Of a DNA stretch of 64,000 nucleotides, positions 4,485-17,091 are shown one piece after another (the first letter of the stretch is position 1; every line of letters starts with the position of its first letter). Made by a program: the position numbers and the translations under genes. Source of the stretch: Hyalangium gracile. GTDB taxonomy: Bacteria; Myxococcota; Myxococcia; Myxococcales; Myxococcaceae. The stretch is from contig NZ_JAHXBG010000036.1 of the NCBI RefSeq assembly GCF_020103725.1, positions 1 through 64,000 on the forward strand. Reading direction: 5' to 3'. Under the pieces are notes generated by a model. It saw nothing but the letters and a program-made list of their open reading frames with translations, did no database searches and was not told where the DNA came from.

Positions 4485-5318
4485 TCAGAAGAGGGCGGTG
4501 CTCAGCTGGTTCGCCAGTTGCTGGAGCGCGGGCAGCAGGCTGTGGCTCGCCGTCCTGGGCGTCGGTATGGCCGAGGTTCGTTGCCACGTCGGGGGAGCGA
4601 GCAGGCGCCCTCCCGAGTGCTGGAAGAGCCGGAATCGTCCCAGCTCCGTGGAGCTGCCCGAGTTGTAGATGCCCAGCGCCCTCTCGTGCCCATTGAGGGT
4701 GAACTCTCGCGGCACGTGCCGGTGCCCGTGGAGGATGAGATCGCAGCGTCCCTGGACGCGCGACACCAGCCGGGGTCCCAGGGCCAGCTCCGCCGCGTGC
4801 GGCCAGCCCATCCTCGTGGCCAGCCGCTCGGGGAGGCTCTCCTCGGGCAGTGGCAGCACGTGGTGGTGCAGCAGGATCGCCGTCAGGGCCTCGCGTGGAG
4901 CGGCGGCGAGGGCCGTGTCCACCGCCTCCAGCGCCGCCGAGGTCAGCGTTCCATGGCTCGCGAAGATGGAGCGGCGGTTCTGGGGCCCGGTCGAGTCCAC
5001 ACAGACGAGGTAGAGGCCCTCTCGCTCCACCGTGCACACCTTGCGGCCCTTCATCCAGCGCCTCACCACGTCATCCCCAGGCCGGTCGTGGTTGCCGGGG
5101 ATGAAGGTGAGCCGGGCGGTGTCGAGCAACGGGGAGAAGATCTCCCGGAATCGGCGGAACTCCGCGCTCGCCCCCTGGTGCGTCAGGTCTCCCGTGACCA
5201 CCACATGGTCCACGCGCTCGGCGAGCAGGGTCGCCACGAGGGCTCGTGCCGCGGAGTCGCTGCTGGGACTCAGGTCCAGATGGAGGTCCGAGAGGTGCGC
5301 CAGCTTCTGAACGGGCAT
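4485..5318 (-). CDS. Metallophosphoesterase, CpdA-like
   Basis: 277 aa with all calcineurin-type metal motifs in order: SDLHLD (about 9-14), TGDLTHQG (about 42-49), GNHDRPG (about 75-81), LLHHHV (about 149-154) and HGHRHVP (about 197-203). This arrangement is that of class III cyclic-nucleotide phosphodiesterases such as CpdA, although substrates in the family range widely. There is no signal peptide, so it should act in the cytoplasm. A candidate Pho box lies 40 bases upstream of its start and the gene follows the pst/pho cluster, so induction on phosphate starvation, perhaps to release phosphate from phosphodiesters, is a reasonable inference. Confidence 0.85.
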   Translation of the reverse strand: MPVQKLAHLSDLHLDLSPSSDSAARALVATLLAERVDHVVVTGDLTHQGASAEFRRFREIFSPLLDTARLTFIPGNHDRPGDDVVRRWMKGRKVCTVEREGLYLVCVDSTGPQNRRSIFASHGTLTSAALEAVDTALAAAPREALTAILLHHHVLPLPEESLPERLATRMGWPHAAELALGPRLVSRVQGRCDLILHGHRHVPREFTLNGHERALGIYNSGSSTELGRFRLFQHSGGRLLAPPTWQRTSAIPTPRTASHSLLPALQQLANQLSTALF

Positions 5319-5357
5319 GACGCATTCATAGGCACCTCCGGAAACACCCTGATGGCT

Positions 5358-5390
5358 CGCCGGTGAAAGCTTCGAGAGCCTCGTGTGACA
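5358..5390 (-). promoter_or_regulatory. Candidate Pho box upstream of CpdA-like gene
   Basis: On the minus strand, TGTCACACGAG, GCTCTCGAAGC and TTTCACCGGCG are three consecutive 11-mers. The first and third carry TGTCAC/TTTCAC half-sites exactly 22 bp apart, matching the 11-bp phasing of PhoB-type sites; the middle copy is degenerate. The site ends 40 bases before the phosphoesterase start. Confidence 0.45.
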
Positions 5391-5396
5391 GCGCGG

Positions 5397-6608
5397 TCAA
5401 CCCGCGAGCAGCTCCTCGCCTGGGCTCGCCTCGCTCGGAGAGAGCGCCAGCGGTGCCCTGGTCTCCACCGGAGCCAGCCGCGTGCCCGGCAACACTCGCA
5501 GCCGCGTCCCCCGCCAGTCCACCGTCCGGCTGAACAGGCCGTTGCACCAGGCCACGAAGAGCAGGGCGTCCTTGATGAGCACGGCGGGAACCGTGCGCCA
5601 GGACACCGGCTCCGGACGCAGCATGCGGAACACCGTCACGTCGATGGCGGCCTTCGTCATGGCCAGGGCCGCCACCGCCGCGAAGGCCGGCATCCCCGGC
5701 TCCAGCAGCGCTGCCAGCAGCGCCAGCGGCACGGGGTTGAGCAGCCCCTGCGCCAGGTACGTCATCGTCCCCACGGAGCTGTGGTGGATGACGCTCCAGC
5801 GCACGTAGCGCTTGAAGAAGGCCCCCACGCACTTCCTCAGGGACACGTTGAACACCGGCGTCGTCGCCACGTGGACCCGCTTGCCCAGCCTGCGCGTCAC
5901 CCACTGCCCGATGACGAAGTCCTCCGCCAGCACGTCCTTCACCGAGAAGAAGCCGCCGAGTGCCTCCACGTCCTCGCGCCGCAGCGCCATGGACTTGCCC
6001 ACCACGATGTCCTTGTCCGCCAGCCGCTTGGCGGCGATCACCCCCGCCGCCGCGCTCGAGGCCAGGTGGAGGTTGTCCAGCAGCGAGCCCAGCGTCTGCT
6101 CGCCAATCCCCCCGATCGGATGCGTCACGCAGCCCACCGTCGGATCCTCGAACCCGTCGGCAATCCCATCGAGATAACCCGGCGCCACGCGCACGTTCGA
6201 GTCGCTGATCACCCACAAGTCATATCGGGCCTCGGAGGACAGCGTGACGAGCTGGTTCACCTTCGGGTTGAGGCCCGGCTCGCCCTCCTGCAGCACCAGC
6301 CGCATCACCTGGGGCCAGCGGGCCACCGCCGCCCGCGCCACCGCGTAGGCCGGATCCCTCATGTCCTTCACGCCCAGGAGCACCTCGTAGCTCGGGTAGT
6401 CGAGCGAGGCGAACTGCTCCAGGTTGGCCTCCAGATCGTCATCCACGCCGCACAGGGGCTTGAGGATGGAGATGCCCGGCCGGGCCGCGCCTTCCGAGCG
6501 GGGCAGGGGGCACTCGCGGCGGTGGCGCAGGACGTAGACGAGCTGCACTGCCAGGGCCACAAGCCCTACCGAGGCGGCGGCGAGCAGGACGAGGGAGGCG
6601 ACGGGCAT
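5397..6608 (-). CDS. Ceramide-glucosyltransferase-like glycosyltransferase (GT21)
   Basis: 403 aa. An N-terminal membrane helix (residues 4-27) is followed by a GT-A domain containing SILKPLCGVDDDLE (about 48-60), the metal-binding-type motif DSNVRV (136-141), AEDF with Asp230, and RYVRW (268-272), equivalent to the (Q/R)xxRW motif of GT21. Two or three hydrophobic segments (about 285-370) anchor the C-terminus. The family includes ceramide glucosyltransferase and HpnI; the acceptor is likely a sphingolipid or other membrane lipid, and myxobacteria do contain sphingolipids. A candidate Pho box at 6710-6731 and the adjoining phoU-pst operon suggest phosphate-controlled synthesis of a phosphorus-free glycolipid. 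Exact sugar and acceptor are not readable from sequence. Confidence 0.8.
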   Translation of the reverse strand: MPVASLVLLAAASVGLVALAVQLVYVLRHRRECPLPRSEGAARPGISILKPLCGVDDDLEANLEQFASLDYPSYEVLLGVKDMRDPAYAVARAAVARWPQVMRLVLQEGEPGLNPKVNQLVTLSSEARYDLWVISDSNVRVAPGYLDGIADGFEDPTVGCVTHPIGGIGEQTLGSLLDNLHLASSAAAGVIAAKRLADKDIVVGKSMALRREDVEALGGFFSVKDVLAEDFVIGQWVTRRLGKRVHVATTPVFNVSLRKCVGAFFKRYVRWSVIHHSSVGTMTYLAQGLLNPVPLALLAALLEPGMPAFAAVAALAMTKAAIDVTVFRMLRPEPVSWRTVPAVLIKDALLFVAWCNGLFSRTVDWRGTRLRVLPGTRLAPVETRAPLALSPSEASPGEELLAG

Positions 6609-6709
6609 TCGCGAGCTCCAGAGCGGCGCACGGTCATCGTGCGACCTGCTCGGGAGGCTAGAAGGGCCCGGCGTCAGCTCAGCGACCGCCTCGCGTCGGC
6701 GGCGGGAAA

Positions 6710-6731
6710 ACGGAGTGACAGCGGCGTGAAG
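6710..6731 (-). promoter_or_regulatory. Candidate Pho box upstream of glycosyltransferase
   Basis: The minus strand has CTTCACGCCGC directly followed by TGTCACTCCGT, so TTCAC and GTCAC half-sites are 11 bp apart as in PhoB-type boxes. It lies in the 137-bp gap between the phoU stop and the glycosyltransferase start, about 100 bases from the latter, leaving room for a promoter. Confidence 0.5.
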
Positions 6732-6745
6732 TCCCGCTCCCTTGC

Positions 6746-7435
6746 CTACTCCTGGGAGAGGTTGCGGCTTCGCGGGTGGCGGATGTCCTTGCCCCGCACC
6801 ATGTAGACGACCATCTCCGCCACGTTCATCGCGTGGTCCCCGATGCGCTCCAGGTGCTTGGCGATGAACATCAGCGCGGTGGCCCGACGGATGTTCTTCG
6901 AGTCCTCCATCATGTACGCCAGCAGCTCGTTGAAGACCTTCAGGAAGAGTGCATCCAGGAGATCATCCCCCTTGAGCACCTCCTCGGCCTTCGCCACGTC
7001 GTTGGACACGAACGCGTCCAGCGCCTTCTTCACCTGCTGCTGGGCCAGCTCCGCCAGCTTCGGCGTGTCCACGTAGGGCGCCAGCGGCGTCACCTGGTTC
7101 AGATCGATGGCCCGCTCGGCGATGTTCACCGCCAGATCCCCGATGCGCTCCAGGTCCGTGACGATCTTCAGCGCCGTGGTGATGAGGCGCAGATCGCTCG
7201 CCGCGGGCTGCCGCAGCGCCAGGATGCGGCGGCAGAGATCGTCGATCTCCACCTCCAGCCGGTTCACGTCCTTGTCGGACTTGATGACGTTCTCGGCCAG
7301 CGCGGAGTCGCGCTCCGTGAGCGCCTTCACGCTGTGGGCGATGAGCGTCTCCACCTTGGCGCCCATGGCCAGCAGCCGCTCGCGCAAGTCGCGCAGATCC
7401 TGCTCGAAAGCCTTGTCGGTGTGCGTTGCCGGCAT
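6746..7435 (-). CDS. phoU: Phosphate signalling protein PhoU
   Basis: 229 aa, all helical, with the two PhoU repeats marked by LERIGDLAVNIAER (about 95-108) and LERIGDHAMNVAEM (about 195-208); the acidic/Asn residues bind metal clusters in known structures. PhoU links the PstSCAB transporter to the PhoR kinase and keeps the Pho response off when phosphate is plentiful. Length is typical (220-240). It is the last gene of pstS-pstC-pstA-pstB-phoU, 13 bases after pstB, and the glycosyltransferase beyond it has its own candidate Pho box. Confidence 0.95.
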   Translation of the reverse strand: MPATHTDKAFEQDLRDLRERLLAMGAKVETLIAHSVKALTERDSALAENVIKSDKDVNRLEVEIDDLCRRILALRQPAASDLRLITTALKIVTDLERIGDLAVNIAERAIDLNQVTPLAPYVDTPKLAELAQQQVKKALDAFVSNDVAKAEEVLKGDDLLDALFLKVFNELLAYMMEDSKNIRRATALMFIAKHLERIGDHAMNVAEMVVYMVRGKDIRHPRSRNLSQE

Positions 7436-7448
7436 TGGTGCCTCGATC

Positions 7449-8225
7449 CTACCCGAACTTCCCGGTGACGTAGTCCTCGGTCCGCTTCTCCGCCGGGTTC
7501 GTGAAGATCTGCTCCGTGGGCCCGCATTCCACCAACTCGCCCATGTAGAAGAAAGCCGTCCGGTCGCTCACCCGCGCAGCCTGCTGCATGTTGTGCGTGA
7601 CGATCGCGATCGTGTACGTGGCCTTCAGCTCGTGGATGAGCTCCTCGATCTTCGCCGTGGCGATGGGGTCCAGGGCGCTGGCCGGCTCGTCCATCAGCAG
7701 CACCTCGGGCTCCACCGCCATCGCTCGGGCGATGCACAGGCGCTGCTGCTGGCCGCCAGACAGGCCCAGGGCGCTGTCGTCCAGCCGGTCCTTCACCTCG
7801 TCCCAGAGCGCCGCGCCCCGCAGGGACTTCTCCACTCGCGCCGAGAGCTGCCCCTTGTCCTTCATCCCCGCCACGCGCAGGCCGTAGGCCACGTTCTCGA
7901 AGATGGACTTGGGGAAGGGGTTGGACTTCTGGAACACCATGCCCACCCGGCGGCGCAGATCCACCACGTCCACGCTCCGGTCGTGGATGCTCGTCCCGTC
8001 CAGCAGGATGGTGCCGGTGTGGTTCGAGCTGGGGATGAGATCGTTCATCCGGTTGAGCGAGCGCAGGAAGGTGGACTTGCCACACCCGGACGGGCCGATG
8101 AGCGCCGTCACCTGACGCTCGGGGATGGCGAGGCTCACCTTGTTGATGGCCACCTTGGTGCCGTAGCGGAGGCTCAGCTCCCTCGACTCCATCTTGATGC
8201 GCGGGCTGGGCGGCTGGAAGGTCAT
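7449..8225 (-). CDS. pstB: Phosphate ABC transporter ATP-binding protein PstB
   Basis: 258 aa. Walker A GPSGCGKS is at about 44-51, the Q-loop in [12 protein letters not shown], the signature LSGGQQQR near 150, Walker [14 protein letters not shown], and the H-loop in IVTHNMQQA. These are PstB hallmarks: it hydrolyses ATP to drive phosphate uptake through PstC/PstA at the inner membrane. The ATG at 8225 is chosen because it starts MTFQPP, 11 bases after pstA, although the frame is open far upstream inside pstA. Order and spacing put it in the pst operon. Confidence 0.96.
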
Positions 8226-8236
8226 GGACGGCGTTC

Positions 8237-9148
8237 TCAGTGGGCGTTCGCGGCGCGCCGGCGGGTACGGGTCCGGATGACGACCGCGACTATGTTGAGG
8301 GCGAAGGTGAGCATCAGCAGCACCAGCACCGTGGCGTACAACAACGGGCGGGTGGCCTCCACGTCCGGCGACTGCGTGGCCAGCACGTACGTGTGGTAGC
8401 CCAGGTGCATGAACTGCGAGTTCAGCGAGGTGGGCAGGTCCGGCAGGAAGTACGCCGCGCCGGTGAAGAGGATGGGCGCCACCTCGCCCGCGCCGCGCGA
8501 GACGGCCAGCACGGCACCCGTGAGGATGCCTGGCAGCGCCCCGGGCAGCACCACCCGCACCAGCGTCTGGGACTGGGTGGCGCCCAGCGCCAGGCTCGCG
8601 GTGCGGTGATCCAGGGGCACCGCGCGCAGCGCCTCCTCCGTGGCGACGATGACCACCGGCAGCGTCAGCACCGCCAGCGTCAGCGAGGCCCAGAGGATGC
8701 CAGGCTGCGCCCAGTGCAGCTCCTGGTAGCCCAGCACGCGGTCCAGGCCGCCGCCCACGAAGTGGATGAAGAAGCCCAGGCCGAACAGCCCGAAGACGAT
8801 GGAGGGCACGCCCGCCAGGTTGACGATGGCCACCCGAACCCAGCGCGCCACGATGGAGTCGGGCGGGGCGTACTCGTGCAGGTAGACGGCCGTGAGCACT
8901 CCCACCGGCATCACCGCCAGCGTCATCAGCAGCGTGAGCGCCGCGGTGCCGTAGAGCGCCGGGAAGATGCCGCCGCCCATCATGCCGTCGGACGGGGCCT
9001 CGGTGAGGAACTTCCAGGTGACGTGGCCCGCCCCTTCGGTGAACACGTCCAGCAGGATGACGGCGAGCATCCCCACGATGAGGAGCGCGGCCAGCCCCGT
9101 CAGCGAGGTGAGGGCGCCGCCCACCGCCCGGCGCGTCGAGTGCTTCAC
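8237..9148 (-). CDS. pstA: Phosphate ABC transporter permease PstA
   Basis: 303 aa with six predicted membrane segments; the permease coupling loop reads [20 protein letters not shown] and [11 protein letters not shown], as in binding-protein-dependent permeases. PstA pairs with PstC to form the phosphate channel. The GTG at 9148 is preferred: it has GGAGG seven bases upstream and overlaps the pstC stop by 4 bp (GTGA), indicating translational coupling. The frame is open far upstream, but that part is antisense-like shadow over pstC. Confidence 0.95.
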
Positions 9149-10155
9149 GAGCCACCTCCCGTGAGCCGCTTGAGGACCCGCTTCGTCCAGGTCGCGGCCA
9201 CCATGTTGAGGATGAAGGTGAAGACGAACAGCTCCACGCCGATGAAGAACAGCAGCGAGTAGTGCGGGCTGCCCACCACCACCTCGCCCATCTCGGCGGC
9301 GATCGTCGCCGACAGCGAGCGCACCGAGTCTCCCAGGCTGGCGGAGACGATGGCCGCGTTGCCGGACGCCATCAGGACGATCATCGTCTCGCCGATGGCG
9401 CGGCCGAAGCCCAGCACGCAGCCGGCGAGGATGCCGGGCGCCGCCGCGGGCAGCACCACCTTCCAGGCGGTCTCCCAGGGCGTGGCTCCCAGCGCCAGCG
9501 AGGCCTCGCGGTAGCTGCGCGGCACCGAGGTGAGCGCGTCCTCGGCCACGGTGAAGATGACGGGCACGATGGCCAGCGCCAGCCCCAGGCCCGCCACCAC
9601 CGCGTTGAGCCGGTAGGTGAAGCCGAACGTGTCCTGCAGGAACGTGGCGAGCACCATCAGCGCGAAGAAGCCCAGCACCACCGACGGGATGCCCGCCAGC
9701 AGCTCGATGACGGGCTTGAGCAGCTCCCGCAGCCGCCGCGGAGCGAACTCCGCCGCGAACAGCGCGCCGGCCACGCCCACCGGCACCGCCACCAGCATGG
9801 AGACCACCGTCGTCTTCAGCGTGCCGATGAACAGCGGGATCATGCTCACCTTGGGCACCGAGGATACCGGCTGCCACAGGTAGGCGGGCGGACGGCCCGG
9901 CCGCGTGGGCTGGGCCGTGAACATCTTGGCCAGGCTCGCCTCGTGGCGCGCCTCGGCGTCCAGGAAGAGATCCAGCGCTTCCTTCGCGACGAAGACGATG
10001 ATCAGCACCAGGGCGGCGATGCCCGTGAAGGCCATCGCGGTGACGATGCCCGCGATGACCTTCTCCCGGAGCTGCCGGCGCCGTGCCTCGGGGGAGCTCC
10101 GCGGAGCGACGATGGGTTCAGCGAGACTCTGCTGCATGGGTGCCTCTCTATCCAT
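9145..10155 (-). CDS. pstC: Phosphate ABC transporter permease PstC
   Basis: 336 aa (330 if the second ATG at 10137, which has GAGAGG upstream, is used). Six membrane segments, with a periplasmic region of about 60 residues between the first two and the EAA-type coupling loop [19 protein letters not shown]. It forms the membrane channel with PstA. It begins 39 bases after the pstS stop, with a candidate Pho box in that gap, and ends overlapping pstA by 4 bp. Confidence 0.94.
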
Positions 10156-10168
10156 CCTGGCCCCCCAC

Positions 10169-10190
10169 CTGGCGTGACATTCTTGTGACG
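10169..10190 (-). promoter_or_regulatory. Candidate Pho box between pstS and pstC
   Basis: The minus strand carries CGTCACAAGAA followed directly by TGTCACGCCAG, half-sites 11 bp apart. The second 11-mer is identical to one in the box upstream of the regulator at 11800. An internal promoter here would let pstCAB-phoU be made apart from pstS. The distance to the second pstC ATG (10137) is short, so the leader would be only a few bases. Confidence 0.45.
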
Positions 10191-10193
10191 GGA

Positions 10194-11015
10194 CTACTTC
10201 ACCGGGAAGTAGCCAACCTTGTTCACGATCTGCTGTCCCTCGGTCGACAGGGCGAAGTCGATGAAGGCCTTGGTCTCGCCCGCGGGCGCGTTGCGCAGGT
10301 AGAAGTAGAGATCCCGCGCGAGCGGGTACTTGCCGCTCTTGATGTTCTCGAGGGTGGGCGCCACCTCCTCGTTGCCCACCTTCACCTTCAGCTCCTTGAG
10401 GCCCTTGGCGTAGGCGGCGCCGCCGTAGCCGATGCCGTTCTTCTCCTTGGCCACGGCGTTCACCACCGCGGCGGTGCCCGGCAGCGTCTGCGCGCTGGCG
10501 GTGTAGTCATCCCCACCGAGCACGGTGTCCTTCACGAAGGTGTAGGTGCCGGAGGAGTTCTCGCGGGAGTAGACGACGATGGGCGCGTCCGGGCCGCCCA
10601 CCTCCTTCCAGTTGGTGATGTCGCCCAGGTAGATGCCCTTGAGCTGCTCCTGCGTGAGCGAGTTCAGCGGGTTCTTCTCGTTGACGTAGAAGGTGACGCC
10701 GTCCTTGGCCACGGAGATCTCCGTGCCGTGGGTCTTGAAGCGAGCGTTCAGCTTCTGCTTCTCCGCGTCCTTCATGGGACGGCTGGACATGCAGATCTCG
10801 GTGGTGCCGTTGATGAGCGCGGAGATGCCGGTGCCCGAGCCGCCGCCCGTCACCTGCAGCTTCGTGTCGGCGTTCTTCTTCATGAACTCCTCGGCCCAGC
10901 GCTGGGCGAGGATGACCATGGTGTCCGAGCCCTTGATGGTGATGGTGCCCGCCCGCGCCGCCATGGGCAGGGCGAGCAGGAAGACGGCGAGGAAGGATGC
11001 GAGGAACTTCTTCAT
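10194..11015 (-). CDS. pstS: Phosphate-binding protein PstS
   Basis: 273 aa. A Sec signal peptide (MKKFLASFLAVFLLALPMA, cleavage near ARA at 22) has no lipobox cysteine, so the mature protein should be free in the periplasm. The mature part starts TITIKGSDT and includes GGGSGTGISALINGTTEICM and SRENSSGT, the phosphate-contacting Ser/Thr/Gly segments of the PstS family. It captures phosphate for PstCAB. It lies 95 bases after a PhoB-type regulator in the same direction; one TGTCAC half-site occurs in that gap but no phased partner. Confidence 0.94.
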   Translation of the reverse strand: MKKFLASFLAVFLLALPMAARAGTITIKGSDTMVILAQRWAEEFMKKNADTKLQVTGGGSGTGISALINGTTEICMSSRPMKDAEKQKLNARFKTHGTEISVAKDGVTFYVNEKNPLNSLTQEQLKGIYLGDITNWKEVGGPDAPIVVYSRENSSGTYTFVKDTVLGGDDYTASAQTLPGTAAVVNAVAKEKNGIGYGGAAYAKGLKELKVKVGNEEVAPTLENIKSGKYPLARDLYFYLRNAPAGETKAFIDFALSTEGQQIVNKVGYFPVK

Positions 11016-11110: not shown

Positions 11111-11800
11111 TCAGGCGGAGTGGGGATCGACGATGCGGTAGCCCACGCCGCGCACCGTCTCGAGGCACGCGCGCGCCGGGCCGAGCTTGTCGCGCAGGCG
11201 CATCACGTGCGTGTCGATGGTGCGCGTCTCGAGCGAGCTGGAGAGGCCCCACACCTCCTCCAGGAGCTGGTCGCGCGTCTGCACCCGGCCGACGCGCGTC
11301 ATCAGGTACTCCAGCAGCCGGAACTCCAGCGCCGTGAGCGCCACCTCCTTGTCCTCCACGTAGAAGCGGTGGGCTCCCACGTCGAGCCGGAGGGCGCCCA
11401 GCGTGATGGGCGCCGAGCCGTCCCGCGGCGGGTTGCTGCGGCGCAGGATGGCCTTGAGGCGCAGCACCAGCTCGCGGACGCTGAAGGGCTTGGTCACGTA
11501 GTCGTCCGCTCCCACCTCGAAGCCGCGGACCCGGTCCGCCTCCTCGCCCTTGGCGGTGAGCATGACGATGAGGATGTCCCGGGTGAGCGCCCCCGCGCGC
11601 AGCTGCCGGCACACCTCCGTGCCAGGCATGTCCGGGAGCATCAGATCGAGCAGCACGAGATCCGGTCGCTGCTCTCGCGCCGCGGCGAGGGCCGCCTCGC
11701 CCGTGGCCGCCACCCGGGTGGAGAAGCCGGCCGTCTTGAGGTTGAAGTCGATGAGCTCGGCGAGGTCGCGCTCGTCATCGACGATGAGGACGTGGGACAT
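11111..11800 (-). CDS. PhoB/OmpR-type response regulator next to pst operon
   Basis: 229 aa: receiver (1-120) with Asp52 in VLLDLMLPD, Thr near 80 (MLTAKG) and Lys102 (TKPFS), then a winged-helix domain with ALEFRLLEYLMTRVGRVQTR and VMRLRDKLG, ending RGVGYRI. It belongs to the PhoB class and should bind phased TGTCA repeats. The start is set at ATG 11800, giving MSHVLIVDDE; the open frame extends upstream but covers a candidate Pho box (11831-11863), implying autoregulation. It is the first gene before pstS. Myxococcus xanthus also has a PhoP-type regulator beside its pst genes; equivalence is likely but not proven. No kinase is directly adjacent; PhoR is three genes away. Confidence 0.9.
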   Translation of the reverse strand: MSHVLIVDDERDLAELIDFNLKTAGFSTRVAATGEAALAAAREQRPDLVLLDLMLPDMPGTEVCRQLRAGALTRDILIVMLTAKGEEADRVRGFEVGADDYVTKPFSVRELVLRLKAILRRSNPPRDGSAPITLGALRLDVGAHRFYVEDKEVALTALEFRLLEYLMTRVGRVQTRDQLLEEVWGLSSSLETRTIDTHVMRLRDKLGPARACLETVRGVGYRIVDPHSA

Positions 11801-11830
11801 GGCGATGCAATCTGTCCGTCCCCGTTTGCG

Positions 11831-11863
11831 CTGGCGTGACACGCTGGAAACAACTGCGTGACG
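11831..11863 (-). promoter_or_regulatory. Candidate Pho box (three 11-mers) upstream of PhoB-type regulator
   Basis: On the minus strand CGTCACGCAGT, TGTTTCCAGCG and TGTCACGCCAG stand head-to-tail in perfect 11-bp phase. All three align to the PhoB half-site pattern. The array ends 31 bases before the regulator start, where a PhoB-activated promoter would place its -35 region. This is the best of the five sites. Confidence 0.6.
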
Positions 11864-11932
11864 ATCCACCAGCACCTTGGATTTCGCGGAGTTGCGCCCC
11901 GGTGTTGCAGGCCCGTGACAGGCGAGGGCGGC

Positions 11933-13485: not shown

Positions 13486-14838
13486 CTACCCGGATGCCGC
13501 CTCAGGGGTAGCGACGGGAAGAAAAATGACGAACACGCTGCCTACATGGGGCTGGCTCTCCACCTTCACCTCCCCGCCCATGGCCCCCATCAGGTGTTTC
13601 ACGATGGACAGGCCCAGGCCCGTGCCCCCCATGTCCCGGCTGCGACCTTTGTCCACCCGGTAGAAGCGCTCGAAGATACGGGAGAGGTGCTTCGGCTCGA
13701 TGCCCAGCCCCGTGTCCTTGACCCGGACCACGCAGCGCCCGTCCTCCAATGTGCCGAAGACGTCCACCCGCCCTCCTGCCGGGGTGTACTTCACCGCGTT
13801 ATCGAGCAGGTTCAGGAGCACCTGCTCGACTGCTCGCTCGTCCCCGCGCGCCACCAGGTTCTGGGGGACGTGGAGCTCCAAGTGGATGTTCTTGCCCGCG
13901 GCCTTGGGCTTGACGGTCTCCGCCGCTCGCGAGGCGGCCACCGCCAGGGGCACCTGGGCGATCTTCAGCTGCAGCTCGCGGGACTCCAGCCGGGACAGCT
14001 CGAGCAGATCCTCCACGAGCTCGGAGAGGCGCTCGGACTGGCGGTGGATGATCTCCACCATCTTGGGCGCCATCTCCTGGTCCTTCAGCGCTCCGCTCTG
14101 GAGCGTCTCCGCGTAGCCGCGGATGGCGGTGATGGGGGTGCGCAGCTCGTGGGAGACGTTGGCCACGAAGTCCTTGCGCACCTTCTCCAGCCGCCGCAGC
14201 TCCGTCACGTCGTGGAAGACGGCGGCGCTGCCCGGCAGATCCTTGCCCAGCGGCGTCACGCGGATGGACAGCGTGCGGGGGAACAGCCCCTCCAGGGTGA
14301 GCTCCAGGCGCGAGGATGTCCCCTCCCGGCAGGCGCGCATCACCGCCTCGTGCAGCTCCTCGTTGCGGATGAGGGCCAGCGGGCGCTGGCCCACGATGTC
14401 CGCGCCGCCCGGCTGGAGCATCCCGCGCAGGGCGTCGTTGTGGCGCACGACGTTGCCCGCCGCGTCGGTGATCCAGATGCCCTCGATCATGCCGTCCAGC
14501 ACGGCGGTGAGGGTGCGCGCCTCCTGGGTGAGCTGGGCGTTCTGCGCGGCGAGCCGGGCGTGCAGCGACTCGATGGCGCCCTCCAGCGTCGCCACCTCCT
14601 CCAGCGTGTCGTCCTCGGAGGAGGTGACGGGCGGAATGCCCTCGAGGCGCCCGCGCGTCTTGCGCGCCAGTGTCTGGAGCTGCCGCTCGAAGCTGTCGCG
14701 GCTGGCGATGATGACGGTGACGAAGCCGGCCAGCGTGACGACCGCCGCGGCGATGGCGCTCACGGGCGTGTCCAGGGCCACCAGCACCACCAGGACCACG
14801 ACCGCGGACAGCAGGAGCGGGACGATGAGGTTGCGCAT
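13486..14838 (-). CDS. phoR: Phosphate sensor histidine kinase PhoR
   Basis: 450 aa. Two N-terminal membrane segments (about 3-22 and 26-46) with almost no periplasmic loop, a helical linker, a PAS domain (about 105-215), then HisKA with His230 in VSHELRTPITA, and HATPase_c with LLNLLDNAVKYT (N box), KDTGLGI (G1), RIFERFYR (F box) and GGTGLGL (G2). The lack of a sensing loop fits PhoR, which reads phosphate through PstSCAB-PhoU. It sits 18 bases after the PhoB-type gene at 14857-15537, its likely partner. Confidence 0.9.
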   Translation of the reverse strand: MRNLIVPLLLSAVVVLVVLVALDTPVSAIAAAVVTLAGFVTVIIASRDSFERQLQTLARKTRGRLEGIPPVTSSEDDTLEEVATLEGAIESLHARLAAQNAQLTQEARTLTAVLDGMIEGIWITDAAGNVVRHNDALRGMLQPGGADIVGQRPLALIRNEELHEAVMRACREGTSSRLELTLEGLFPRTLSIRVTPLGKDLPGSAAVFHDVTELRRLEKVRKDFVANVSHELRTPITAIRGYAETLQSGALKDQEMAPKMVEIIHRQSERLSELVEDLLELSRLESRELQLKIAQVPLAVAASRAAETVKPKAAGKNIHLELHVPQNLVARGDERAVEQVLLNLLDNAVKYTPAGGRVDVFGTLEDGRCVVRVKDTGLGIEPKHLSRIFERFYRVDKGRSRDMGGTGLGLSIVKHLMGAMGGEVKVESQPHVGSVFVIFLPVATPEAASG

Positions 14839-14856: not shown

Positions 14857-15537
14857 TCAGGGCGGGTTGAGCTTGTAGCCCACGCCCCGGATGGTCTCGA
14901 TGATGTCGCCCGAAGGGCCCAGCTTCTCGCGCAGCCGCTTGATGTGGGTGTCCACGGTGCGGGTGTGGATCTCCGCCTGGATGCCCCAGACGTCCGAGAG
15001 GAGCACCTCGCGCGTCTGCACCCGTCCGGCCCGCTCCAGCAGCGTGCGCAGCAGGCGGAACTCCAGCGCGGTGAGGATGACCTCCTCGCCCTTCACGCGG
15101 ACCTGGTGGCGCGCCGTGTCCAGCTGGATGTCACCGGCGCCGAGCTGGGGCGCGGGCTCCTCCTCCGCGTCCGCGCGGCGCAGCACCGCCTTGACCCGGA
15201 GCATCAGCTCCCGGACGGAGAAGGGCTTCACCACGTAGTCATCCGCGCCCGCCTCGAGCCCCTGGATGCGGTCGGCCTCCTGGCCCTTGGCGCTGACGAT
15301 GACCACCGGCACCTTGCGCAGCTCCGAGTCGCTCTTGAGCATCCGGAGCACCTCGCTGCCGGCCACGTCCGGGAGCATCAAGTCGAGCAGCACCAGGTCC
15401 GGCATCCGCGCGCGGGCCTTGGCCAGCCCTCCCGCGCCGGTGTTCGCCGTCTCCGTCTCGAACCCCGCGGCGCGGAGGTTGTACTCGACGAGTCCAGCGA
15501 GGTCCTGCTCGTCCTCGATGATCAGGATGCGCGCCAT
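14857..15537 (-). CDS. phoB: Phosphate regulon response regulator PhoB/PhoP
   Basis: 226 aa: receiver with Asp52 (VLLDLMLPD), Ser near 80 (VSAKG) and Lys102 (VKPFS), and a C-terminal winged helix with ALEFRLLRTLLERAGRVQTR and IKRLREKLG, ending RGVGYKL. Directly upstream of phoR in the same direction, it is the probable cognate regulator. The ATG at 15537 gives the family start MARILIIEDE; earlier in-frame codons run through a candidate Pho box (15601-15622). It is close to the second regulator at 11111-11800, so the locus has two PhoB-type proteins but one PhoR. Confidence 0.9.
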   Translation of the reverse strand: MARILIIEDEQDLAGLVEYNLRAAGFETETANTGAGGLAKARARMPDLVLLDLMLPDVAGSEVLRMLKSDSELRKVPVVIVSAKGQEADRIQGLEAGADDYVVKPFSVRELMLRVKAVLRRADAEEEPAPQLGAGDIQLDTARHQVRVKGEEVILTALEFRLLRTLLERAGRVQTREVLLSDVWGIQAEIHTRTVDTHIKRLREKLGPSGDIIETIRGVGYKLNPP

Positions 15538-15600: not shown

Positions 15601-15622
15601 CAATTGTGACAGCGAGGTGAAA
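15601..15622 (-). promoter_or_regulatory. Candidate Pho box upstream of phoB-phoR
   Basis: The minus strand has TTTCACCTCGC directly followed by TGTCACAATTG, two half-sites in 11-bp phase, 64 bases before the regulator start. This implies autoregulation of phoB-phoR and of the phosphoesterase and sixA genes behind them. Confidence 0.5.
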
Positions 15623-15679: not shown

Positions 15680-16183
15680 TCAGAAGGTGGGATCGCAGTC
15701 CACGGTGGTGAGCGTCATCGGCGCGGCGATGACCGGGTCGTTCCGGCTCGCGTTGACCTCCGGGAGGTAGTTGCAGGAGCTGCCCAGGAAGCGCGGCGGG
15801 CTCTCATTGGAGATCGCCTCGATGACGAGCACGTAGTCCCGCCCCACCGGTGCCTCGAAGCTGACGTCCTGCGAGGTGACGCCGGTGCCGCTCAGGTTCT
15901 CCAGGAAGCGCAGCGCGCGGCTCTCCCGGCCCCGGGCATCGTGGAGCGGCAGCAGCTCGTCAAGCCTCACCTTCTGGTTGAGGCAGGTCTTCTGGAGCTC
16001 CGTGCAGTCGCGCTGCTTGCCGTCCGGGAGCACCACGATCTGGAAGGCGGACAGCTGGTCCGTCACGGCCTTCTCCACGAGCAGGTCCAGCCCGAGCGGG
16101 GAGGTGTCGGAGGAGGGCGCCGCGCCACAGCCGGCGACGAGCGTGAGGGCCAGGGACGTCAGGGCGAACGGACGAAGGTTCAT
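15680..16183 (-). CDS. Small putative lipoprotein
   Basis: 167 aa with a type II signal peptide: hydrophobic segment ALTSLALTLVAGC with the lipid-attachment cysteine at residue 19. Three to four more cysteines occur in the mature part (in DCTELQKTC, SSCNY and the final VDCDPTF), suggesting disulfides. No family recognised. Its start overlaps the stop of the upstream TPR gene by 4 bp (ATGA), so the two are co-translated and may work together in the envelope. Confidence 0.65.
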   Translation of the reverse strand: MNLRPFALTSLALTLVAGCGAAPSSDTSPLGLDLLVEKAVTDQLSAFQIVVLPDGKQRDCTELQKTCLNQKVRLDELLPLHDARGRESRALRFLENLSGTGVTSQDVSFEAPVGRDYVLVIEAISNESPPRFLGSSCNYLPEVNASRNDPVIAAPMTLTTVDCDPTF

Positions 16184-17091
16184 GGATTGACGCGGATGGT
16201 GACGGGGACGCGACCGCGCTCCTCGGAGGTGGCGATGGCGACACCCGCGGCGGTGCCTCCGACGACGACGGCGCCCACGCCCACCCAGAGCCAGGGGCTC
16301 TTGTACCAGGGCCGCGCCGTGCTGGCCGTCGCGGACGTGCCCGAGGCCGGCTGGGGCATCACCGAGAAGATGAGCGGGTTGAAGGAGTCGCCCCGGCCCG
16401 CCAGCCGCCGCTGCGCCGCGTCCGCCACCTCGAAGTAGTACTCCACCTCATAGGGGTTGGCCTCGGAGGGTAGCTCGTAGGCGGGCAGGGTGGCCTGGTA
16501 CTGCTCCTTGTTGCCTCGCAGGCGCGTGAAGTCCACCGAGCTGTAGGCCTCGTCCCCCGCGCGGCGGAAGAAGAGCTTCGCCTTGGCCCCCAGGGCCATG
16601 TTCTCGATGCGCGCGTCCACCACCACCGGCTCGCCGCCCGTGGGGTCCGGGATGGGGTCCACCTGCAGCGTCACCGGCCGGACACGCCGGCTCTTGATGT
16701 CCTCCTTGATGCGCGCGTACAGCTGCCGCAGCTTGGGCGGCGCGTTGCGGGGCAGCTCGAAGTCCGGCCGGGCCTGGAGCAGCCGCTCGTAGGCCTCCCG
16801 GGCGCGCGCCTCGTCCCCCAGGTACAGCGAGGCCAGCCCGAGCAGGCGGTAGAGCTCCACCAGCTGATCATCCGTGACGTCGGGCGCATCCAGGCCCGCC
16901 TGGAGCGTCTTCACCGCCTCCTCGAAGTCCCCCTGCTCGATCTGCTCCTGGGCGCGGACGATCTCCCGGTTGGTGGGGCCCAGCTGGAAGAGGAGGGGCT
17001 CTGGGAAGACGGGTCGAGCGAACGCCAGGGCAGGGCTCAGGAGCCCGCCTACCAGGATGCTGACCACCACACGCAGCCGCCAGCCTTGCAT
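16180..17091 (-). CDS. TPR-containing envelope protein
   Basis: 303 aa. An N-terminal signal peptide (cleavage near AFARP, about residue 25) is followed by one or two tetratricopeptide-like repeats (about 45-110: EQIEQGDFEEAVKTLQ and YLGDEARAREAYERLLQ), a beta-rich middle domain (about 135-250), and a C-terminal hydrophobic segment WLWVGVGAVVVGGTAAGVAI (about 270-290). It is therefore probably exported and anchored by its C-terminus. The same architecture recurs in myxobacterial hypothetical proteins. Co-translated with the lipoprotein that follows it. Specific function unknown. Confidence 0.7.
   Translation of the reverse strand: MQGWRLRVVVSILVGGLLSPALAFARPVFPEPLLFQLGPTNREIVRAQEQIEQGDFEEAVKTLQAGLDAPDVTDDQLVELYRLLGLASLYLGDEARAREAYERLLQARPDFELPRNAPPKLRQLYARIKEDIKSRRVRPVTLQVDPIPDPTGGEPVVVDARIENMALGAKAKLFFRRAGDEAYSSVDFTRLRGNKEQYQATLPAYELPSEANPYEVEYYFEVADAAQRRLAGRGDSFNPLIFSVMPQPASGTSATASTARPWYKSPWLWVGVGAVVVGGTAAGVAIATSEERGRVPVTIRVNP

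Follow-up and report, generated by a model that had tools for sequence, protein, structure and literature searches.

A Pho box-preceded GT21 glycosyltransferase gene in the pst-phoU cluster of Hyalangium gracile and its predicted role in glycolipid synthesis under phosphate starvation

Introduction

Pgt, a member of glycosyltransferase family GT21, is reportedly a processive enzyme that glycosylates lipids in Mesorhizobium loti and Agrobacterium, as described by Devers in 2011. To our knowledge, the GT21 members studied so far all act on lipids.

Agrobacterium Pgt is reported to prefer diacylglycerol (DAG) and also to accept ceramide (PMC3972451), to have a predicted Pho box and to play a role in phosphate starvation (PMC3972451, PMC4796936). 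plcP is reported to lie upstream of glycosyltransferase genes, one of which encodes a confirmed glycosyl-DAG maker (PMC4796936). In Caulobacter, Sgt1 and Sgt2 are reported to form a glycosphingolipid upon phosphate starvation, and both are described as GT-4-type enzymes (PMC6445935). With these rhizobial and Caulobacter precedents, phosphate-linked glycolipid remodeling is not new in bacteria. In the open-licence literature that we searched, we found no paper on a GT21-pst gene in myxobacteria, which does not prove that none exists.

Here, we analyzed a 64-kb stretch (64,000 nucleotides) of the genome of the myxobacterium H. gracile, hereafter called the window, which carries a GT21 gene in a pst-phoU cluster. 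Like Pgt as reported, this gene has a predicted Pho box upstream and a phosphoesterase gene nearby, PlcP being the phosphoesterase encoded beside Pgt-related genes. Unlike Pgt, the window glycosyltransferase belongs to a separate myxobacterial GT21 clade, its gene lies inside the pst-phoU cluster, and the partner phosphoesterase is GpdQ-like. The alphaproteobacterial sequences used in our comparisons are annotated as ceramide glucosyltransferases and are not proven Pgt enzymes.

Results

The sequence-only reading of the locus had recognized a GT21-type enzyme, an assignment that Pfam confirmed, with model PF13506 (Glyco_transf_21) scoring 152.3 bits (cut-off 21.7, E 1.1e-44). A sequence search of the PDB (E up to 1) matched ceramide glucosyltransferase chains only, the best being 26qf (E 3e-31). 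The alignment with this enzyme, UGCG, covers residues 22-275 and retains the DxD-like, ED and RxxRW residues; nevertheless, it amounts to only ~110 bits. Among 40 aligned GT21 homologs, D85, D136, E229-D230 and R267-x-x-R270-W271 are invariant, and we take the invariant Asp residues and RxxRW to be the catalytic motifs of GT21. The AlphaFold2 model (pLDDT 93.2, pTM 0.89) consists of a membrane helix at the N-terminus, a GT-A domain and helices at the C-terminus. Its top fold match in VIA-align was a viral hyaluronan synthase (Z 24.2, rmsd 3.4, 346 residues), and the archaeal mannosyltransferase 6yv7 aligned with Z 23.4 and rmsd 4.2 over 318 residues; UGCG structures were absent among the fold-search matches listed, from which we draw no conclusion. 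In the 11.7-Mb genome, the GT21 protein is the single strong match by protein search, and PF13506 finds six other, more distant proteins. The closest named relative by GT21 protein is Hyalangium versicolor (89%).

As the sequence-only reading had also stated, the gene adjoins phoU, which is encoded on the same strand 137 bp further upstream and whose product passes the cut-off of its model (Table 1). The cluster holds two PhoB-like regulators; the coordinates of the one next to pstS delimit its longest frame, and the true start is probably further in. Of the Pho-box-like sites in the cluster, the best conserved is the one in the pstS-pstC spacer and not one before pstS: by the looser per-gene score described below, a site reaching 10 or more was present 5′ of pstC in 19 of 19 relatives. 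This suggests that pstCAB-phoU has a promoter of its own within the cluster. The second PhoB-like gene, located upstream of the PhoR-like kinase gene, is preceded by the best Pho-box match found in the window.

Table 1. Features of the GT21 locus and the pst-phoU cluster in the window
Feature	Position	Strand	Basis
Calcineurin-like metallophosphoesterase, 277 aa	4485..5318	-	PF00149 1e-15; GpdQ/Rv0805-like fold
Weakly Pho-box-like sequence with 2 mismatches at the GT21 stop codon, 5′ of the phosphoesterase gene	5385..5401	-	Uncertain
GT21-family membrane glycosyltransferase, 403 aa	5397..6608	-	ATG at 6608; PF13506
Pho box before GT21, TTCAC-N6-GTCAC, 11-bp phase	6715..6731	-	Pattern search and conservation
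phoU	6746..7435	-	TIGR02135 231.3 bits, cut-off 130.25
pstB	7449..8222	-	TIGR00972 410.1 bits, cut-off 343.2 (scanned as 7449-8255)
pstA	8238..9146	-	Position and conserved synteny only
pstC	9145..10155	-	TIGR02138 245.9 bits, cut-off 196.45
Pho box, pstS-pstC spacer	10174..10190	-	Strict pattern
pstS	10194..11015	-	TIGR02136 259.7 bits, cut-off 206.6
PhoB-like response regulator (longest frame)	11111..11875	-	TIGR02154 254.5 bits, below cut-off 296.2
PhoR-like histidine kinase	13486..14838	-	NF046044 395.4 (cut-off 400); TIGR02966 308 (cut-off 334.2)
Second PhoB-like response regulator	14857..15537	-	Named from its sequence
Pho box before the second PhoB-like gene	15606..15622		Strict pattern

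The GT21 gene is preceded by the Pho-like box CTTCACGCCGCTGTCAC, about 107-122 nt 5′ of its ATG, and a third, weaker half-site in the same 11-bp phase reaches to about position 6704; the phased box that the sequence-only reading had assigned to this gene is thus present. A loose Pho-box pattern was uninformative across the window, with 9 matches against 8.84 expected (not significant). The strict pattern [TG]TCAC-N6-G[TA]CAC, in turn, occurred 4 times in the 64 kb, whereas simulated sequences contained it 0.46 times on average. Three of these sites are located before the second PhoB-like gene, pstC and GT21, and the fourth lies on the opposite strand at 16670, within the ORF 16180-17091.

In related genomes, the strict pattern was found 5′ of GT21 in 41 of 67 non-redundant upstream regions. 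Elsewhere in these loci it occurred 36 times in 1.42 Mb, a background of 0.006 expected per 250 nt; since the loci compared are from related species, they are not independent trials. Where phoU is part of the locus, 39 of 49 carry the box; where phoU is missing from the fetched locus, 2 of 18 do (L024 and L028). The pattern is missing from 26 of the 67 regions, including those of most deep-branching members. Its presence in L024 and L028, which are themselves deep-branching, makes it less likely that the box was inherited solely with the pst cluster. Across relatives, the box is found at two favored distances, roughly -82 or -122 to -128 relative to the gene start. The conservation of the half-sites, the drift of the spacer and the two favored distances form the pattern expected of a binding site. 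A looser per-gene score of 10 or more, attained by 14-20% of shuffles, was weak evidence: it was reached at 19 of 21 loci for GT21, but also at 14 of 20 for pstB, 11 of 18 for pstS and 9 of 22 for CNNM, and at 0 of 21 for phoU and 0 of 22 for the response regulator. Our conclusions rest on the strict pattern. A scan of positions 5200-7500 for sigma-70 promoters and terminators found none, a result that is uninformative for a Pho promoter.

The adjacency to phoU is also conserved, so that gene, neighbor and box recur together in relatives. Among 30 loci from named genomes, 21 have phoU <400 bp from GT21, as do all 35 loci of a second set, which comprises the best matches, that is, close kin, and may overlap the 30. 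In three uncultured Anaeromyxobacter loci, GT21 is found 0.7-3.6 kb behind phoU, and in an Archangiaceae MAG (L022), PhoB- and PhoR-like genes are located upstream of GT21. In the latter, a gene adjoining GT21 (L022:4295-5626, -) gives the impression, from its sequence, of a phosphate-selective porin. A record titled Comamonas sp. KCTC 72670 (L019) contains a Myxococcus-type pst-phoU-GT21 cluster with a GT21 70% identical to that of the window; it is probably a mislabeled or contaminated assembly.

Gene content was compared in 117 genomes of the order, with GT21 orthologs defined by 49% identity or more. Based on this definition, proteins of 37-42% identity in G001, G007, G024, G027, G030, G039, G049 and G077 were left out, as were short fragments in G012, G067 and G069. 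A GT21 ortholog was present in 78 genomes, the phosphoesterase in 66 and both in 57.

The sequence-only reading had not listed this phosphoesterase gene, which follows GT21 and is its second conserved partner. The two genes lie within 2 kb of each other in 51 of the 57 genomes with both; in 48 they share a strand, and 10 of the 51 genomes are from outside the window's family. Their evolution is correlated (LR 16.4, p 0.0025), also when GT21 is defined more widely (p 0.011). The phosphoesterase is missing from 21 of the 78 GT21 genomes, including those of the M. xanthus type and four others of the window's genus, and therefore cannot be essential.

The metal-site residues D11, H13, D44, N76, H77, H151-153, H197 and H199 are invariant in 31 phosphoesterase homologs. 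The nearest fold to the phosphoesterase model (pLDDT 83.0) was Lmo2642 (Z 24.5, rmsd 4.9, 262 residues), followed by Rv0805 (Z 24.1, rmsd 2.6, 214 residues) and the glycerophosphodiesterase GpdQ (Z 23.8, rmsd 2.7, 219 residues). The protein thus shares its predicted fold and metal-site residues with the GpdQ/Rv0805 class; the sequence match is weak (E about 0.001), and unlike members of that class, the window gene is coupled to a glycosyltransferase. LpxH came no higher than rank 40 in the Foldseek list. A strongly amphipathic helix (moment 0.47, equaled by 0 of 2000 shuffles) forms the C-terminus and may touch the membrane, although it belongs to a low-confidence part of the model.

Two alphaproteobacterial plasmid loci have the same layout as the myxobacterial pair, with a phosphoesterase annotated as UDP-2,3-diacylglucosamine diphosphatase followed by a GT21 annotated as ceramide glucosyltransferase; the myxobacterial phosphoesterase, however, appears to be of an unrelated subfamily. 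We considered whether it could be PlcP and found no support for this identity: comparison with two PlcP-like neighbors of alphaproteobacterial GT21s, themselves PlcP by inference, gave E 0.02, and the fold is nearest to GpdQ/Rv0805. One of these two proteins was searched in the window's genome, without a match. We also rejected a Pho box of the phosphoesterase gene itself at the GT21 stop, as the site lacks conservation, with the score attained in 6 of 18 relatives, compared with 14% of shuffles.

The best NCBIfam model of the GT21 protein is HpnI (TIGR03472), at 251.6 bits, below the cut-off of 310. In a family tree, which contained no proven Pgt sequence, the protein falls within a clade of 37 myxobacterial sequences (support 100/91). 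Supported clades separate this group from HpnI with its cyclase-linked relatives and from the alphaproteobacterial GT21s; it is also apart from a second set of paralogs whose genes lie a few kb from sub-cut-off terpene cyclases. Human UGCG, on a long branch, groups weakly with the alphaproteobacterial GT21s (90/92), outside the myxobacterial clade. Squalene-hopene cyclase (TIGR01507) has 0 matches in the window's genome and exceeds the cut-off in 6 of the 78 GT21 genomes. As a separate observation, loci L123-L127 and L136 contain a second GT21 (24-30% identical) a few kb from a sub-cut-off squalene-hopene-cyclase-like gene, a HpnI-like pairing that is absent from the window's genome.

The window's genome encodes serine palmitoyltransferase (SPT), with a match to the PDB SPT 8guh at E 1.4e-121; its best NCBIfam model is NF047600, serine palmitoyltransferase, at 518.7 bits, below the cut-off of 640. 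A GNAT-like protein is encoded beside it (L074:1-1119, -), for which no NCBIfam match was found at E up to 1e-5 and which, by resemblance, may be a bacterial ceramide synthase. Among the 117 genomes, 68 have both GT21 and SPT, 10 GT21 only, 6 SPT only and 33 neither. The genomes G002, G010, G016 and G025 (family f3, 45-46% identity) were counted as SPT-bearing on the basis of their best model, SPT, which scored under its cut-off. Six GT21 genomes are clean cases without SPT (G008, G026, G029, G035, G050 and G111), in the sense that the assembly is good and all BioF/Kbl-type matches exceed the BioF or Kbl cut-offs. Excluded from these cases were the incomplete G020 and G048, together with G045 and G097, in which an alpha-oxoamine-synthase domain lies in an open frame of >2300 codons (L114 and L122, respectively). 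By the NCBIfam cut-offs, these two frames are neither BioF, Kbl nor SPT, and they are possibly part of a large biosynthetic protein.

On an rpoB tree of 58 genomes, GT21 and SPT showed correlated evolution (LR 17.05, p 0.0019). The tree was built from 60 genomes picked from the 103 with an rpoB match, minus the partial G045 and G106; G025 is absent for want of an rpoB match. Under the wider definition of GT21, the correlation stood at p 0.011; dropping one patchy genus weakened it to p 0.049, and counting the f3 genomes as SPT-less gave p 0.0008. In contrast, no correlation was obtained on this tree for GT21 and the cyclase (p 0.53) or for the phosphoesterase and SPT (p 0.33).

Discussion

In our view, the most economical reading is that this GT21 serves glycolipid synthesis during phosphate starvation. 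More specifically, we propose, with a probability of roughly 0.6, a Pho-induced synthesis of a phosphorus-free glycolipid from ceramide and/or DAG, in which the phosphoesterase frees the acceptor. Low phosphate would be sensed through Pst/PhoU and PhoR, and the PhoB-type regulators so activated would bind the Pho box of GT21 and raise its expression. The GpdQ-like phosphodiesterase would, most likely, remove phosphate-bearing head groups, releasing phosphate and a neutral lipid acceptor. At the inner membrane, GT21 would then use a UDP-sugar as donor and glycosylate this neutral lipid at its hydroxyl, yielding the phosphorus-free glycolipid.

In H. gracile, the acceptor is most likely (dihydro)ceramide, DAG or the two together; we lean slightly towards ceramide, which is favored because SPT is encoded in the genome and GT21 correlates with SPT. 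The suggestion of the sequence-only reading that the acceptor may be a sphingolipid or ceramide therefore holds in part: the presence of SPT and the correlation agree with it, while the persistence of GT21 in genomes without SPT does not. Taken together, the six clean GT21 genomes without SPT and the six SPT genomes without GT21 indicate that the pairing is not obligatory. Ceramide is thus favored as one acceptor, yet can hardly be the sole acceptor across the clade.

The same data bear on the narrower readings of the acceptor. The enzyme could be a counterpart of rhizobial Pgt that glycosylates DAG or alkylacylglycerol, with no part for ceramide. This is a real possibility, though we consider it less than even: orthologs occur in the six SPT-free genomes, four of which also have no cyclase match of weight (none in G008, G035 and G050; 34.6 bits in G111), and one of which, G008, carries the strict Pho box in its GT21 locus (L024), and a Pho-regulated glycosyltransferase of a similar general type is reported to prefer DAG over ceramide. 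DAG, moreover, is present in all of these bacteria. The DAG-only reading is at odds with the gains and losses of GT21, which follow SPT on the rpoB tree, and with the separation of the window clade from the alphaproteobacterial GT21s that adjoin PlcP-like genes. A dedicated ceramide glycosyltransferase, with ceramide as the sole acceptor, would explain why GT21 is found in 68 of the 74 SPT-bearing genomes, why the two are correlated when the contrast pairs are not, and the SPT gene of H. gracile with its GNAT-like neighbor. Nevertheless, we regard this exclusive form as unlikely, given the exceptions in both directions and the placement, weak and on a long branch, of human UGCG away from the myxobacterial clade. 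More speculative still is a PlcP-independent, sphingolipid-centered exchange, in which, during phosphate starvation, the phosphodiesterase would strip phosphosphingolipids of their phospho head groups and the Pho-controlled GT21 would recap the ceramide with sugar, so that sphingolipids instead of glycerolipids would act as the phosphate store.

Readings outside glycerolipids and sphingolipids fare worse. Another acceptor, such as polyprenyl phosphate or an envelope glycan, with Pho control serving the cell envelope and not lipid economy, would fit the predicted fold, which is common to hyaluronan and cellulose synthases and the archaeal mannosyltransferase 6yv7; we judge it improbable in view of the GT21 membership by sequence and of PDB sequence matches confined to ceramide glucosyltransferase. 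A hopanoid role, with the protein acting as HpnI, the bacteriohopanetetrol glycosyltransferase, has in its favor that HpnI is the nearest NCBIfam model. We rejected it as very improbable because the score is under the cut-off, the protein belongs to another clade and the cyclase is absent from the genome.

Of the comparisons drawn here, the one with Caulobacter Sgt1/Sgt2 concerns the product, since a glycosphingolipid upon phosphate starvation, as reported for these enzymes, is also among the products that we propose for the window's GT21; the enzymes differ, being of GT-4 type in Caulobacter and GT21 in the window. Phosphate-starvation glycolipids as such are known, and what is new is that a GT21 clade of its own is encoded within the pst cluster of myxobacteria, next to a GpdQ-like partner apparently distinct from PlcP. 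If our preferred reading of a Pho-induced, phosphorus-free glycolipid made from ceramide and/or DAG is true, the myxobacteria, which form a large group of soil-dwelling predators, would gain a defined and conserved route that spares membrane phosphate. The partner phosphoesterase would then qualify as a candidate enzyme of head-group removal that is not of the PlcP family and, should ceramide be the acceptor, phosphate-starvation glycosphingolipids would have arisen independently a second time, apart from those made by GT-4 enzymes in Caulobacter.
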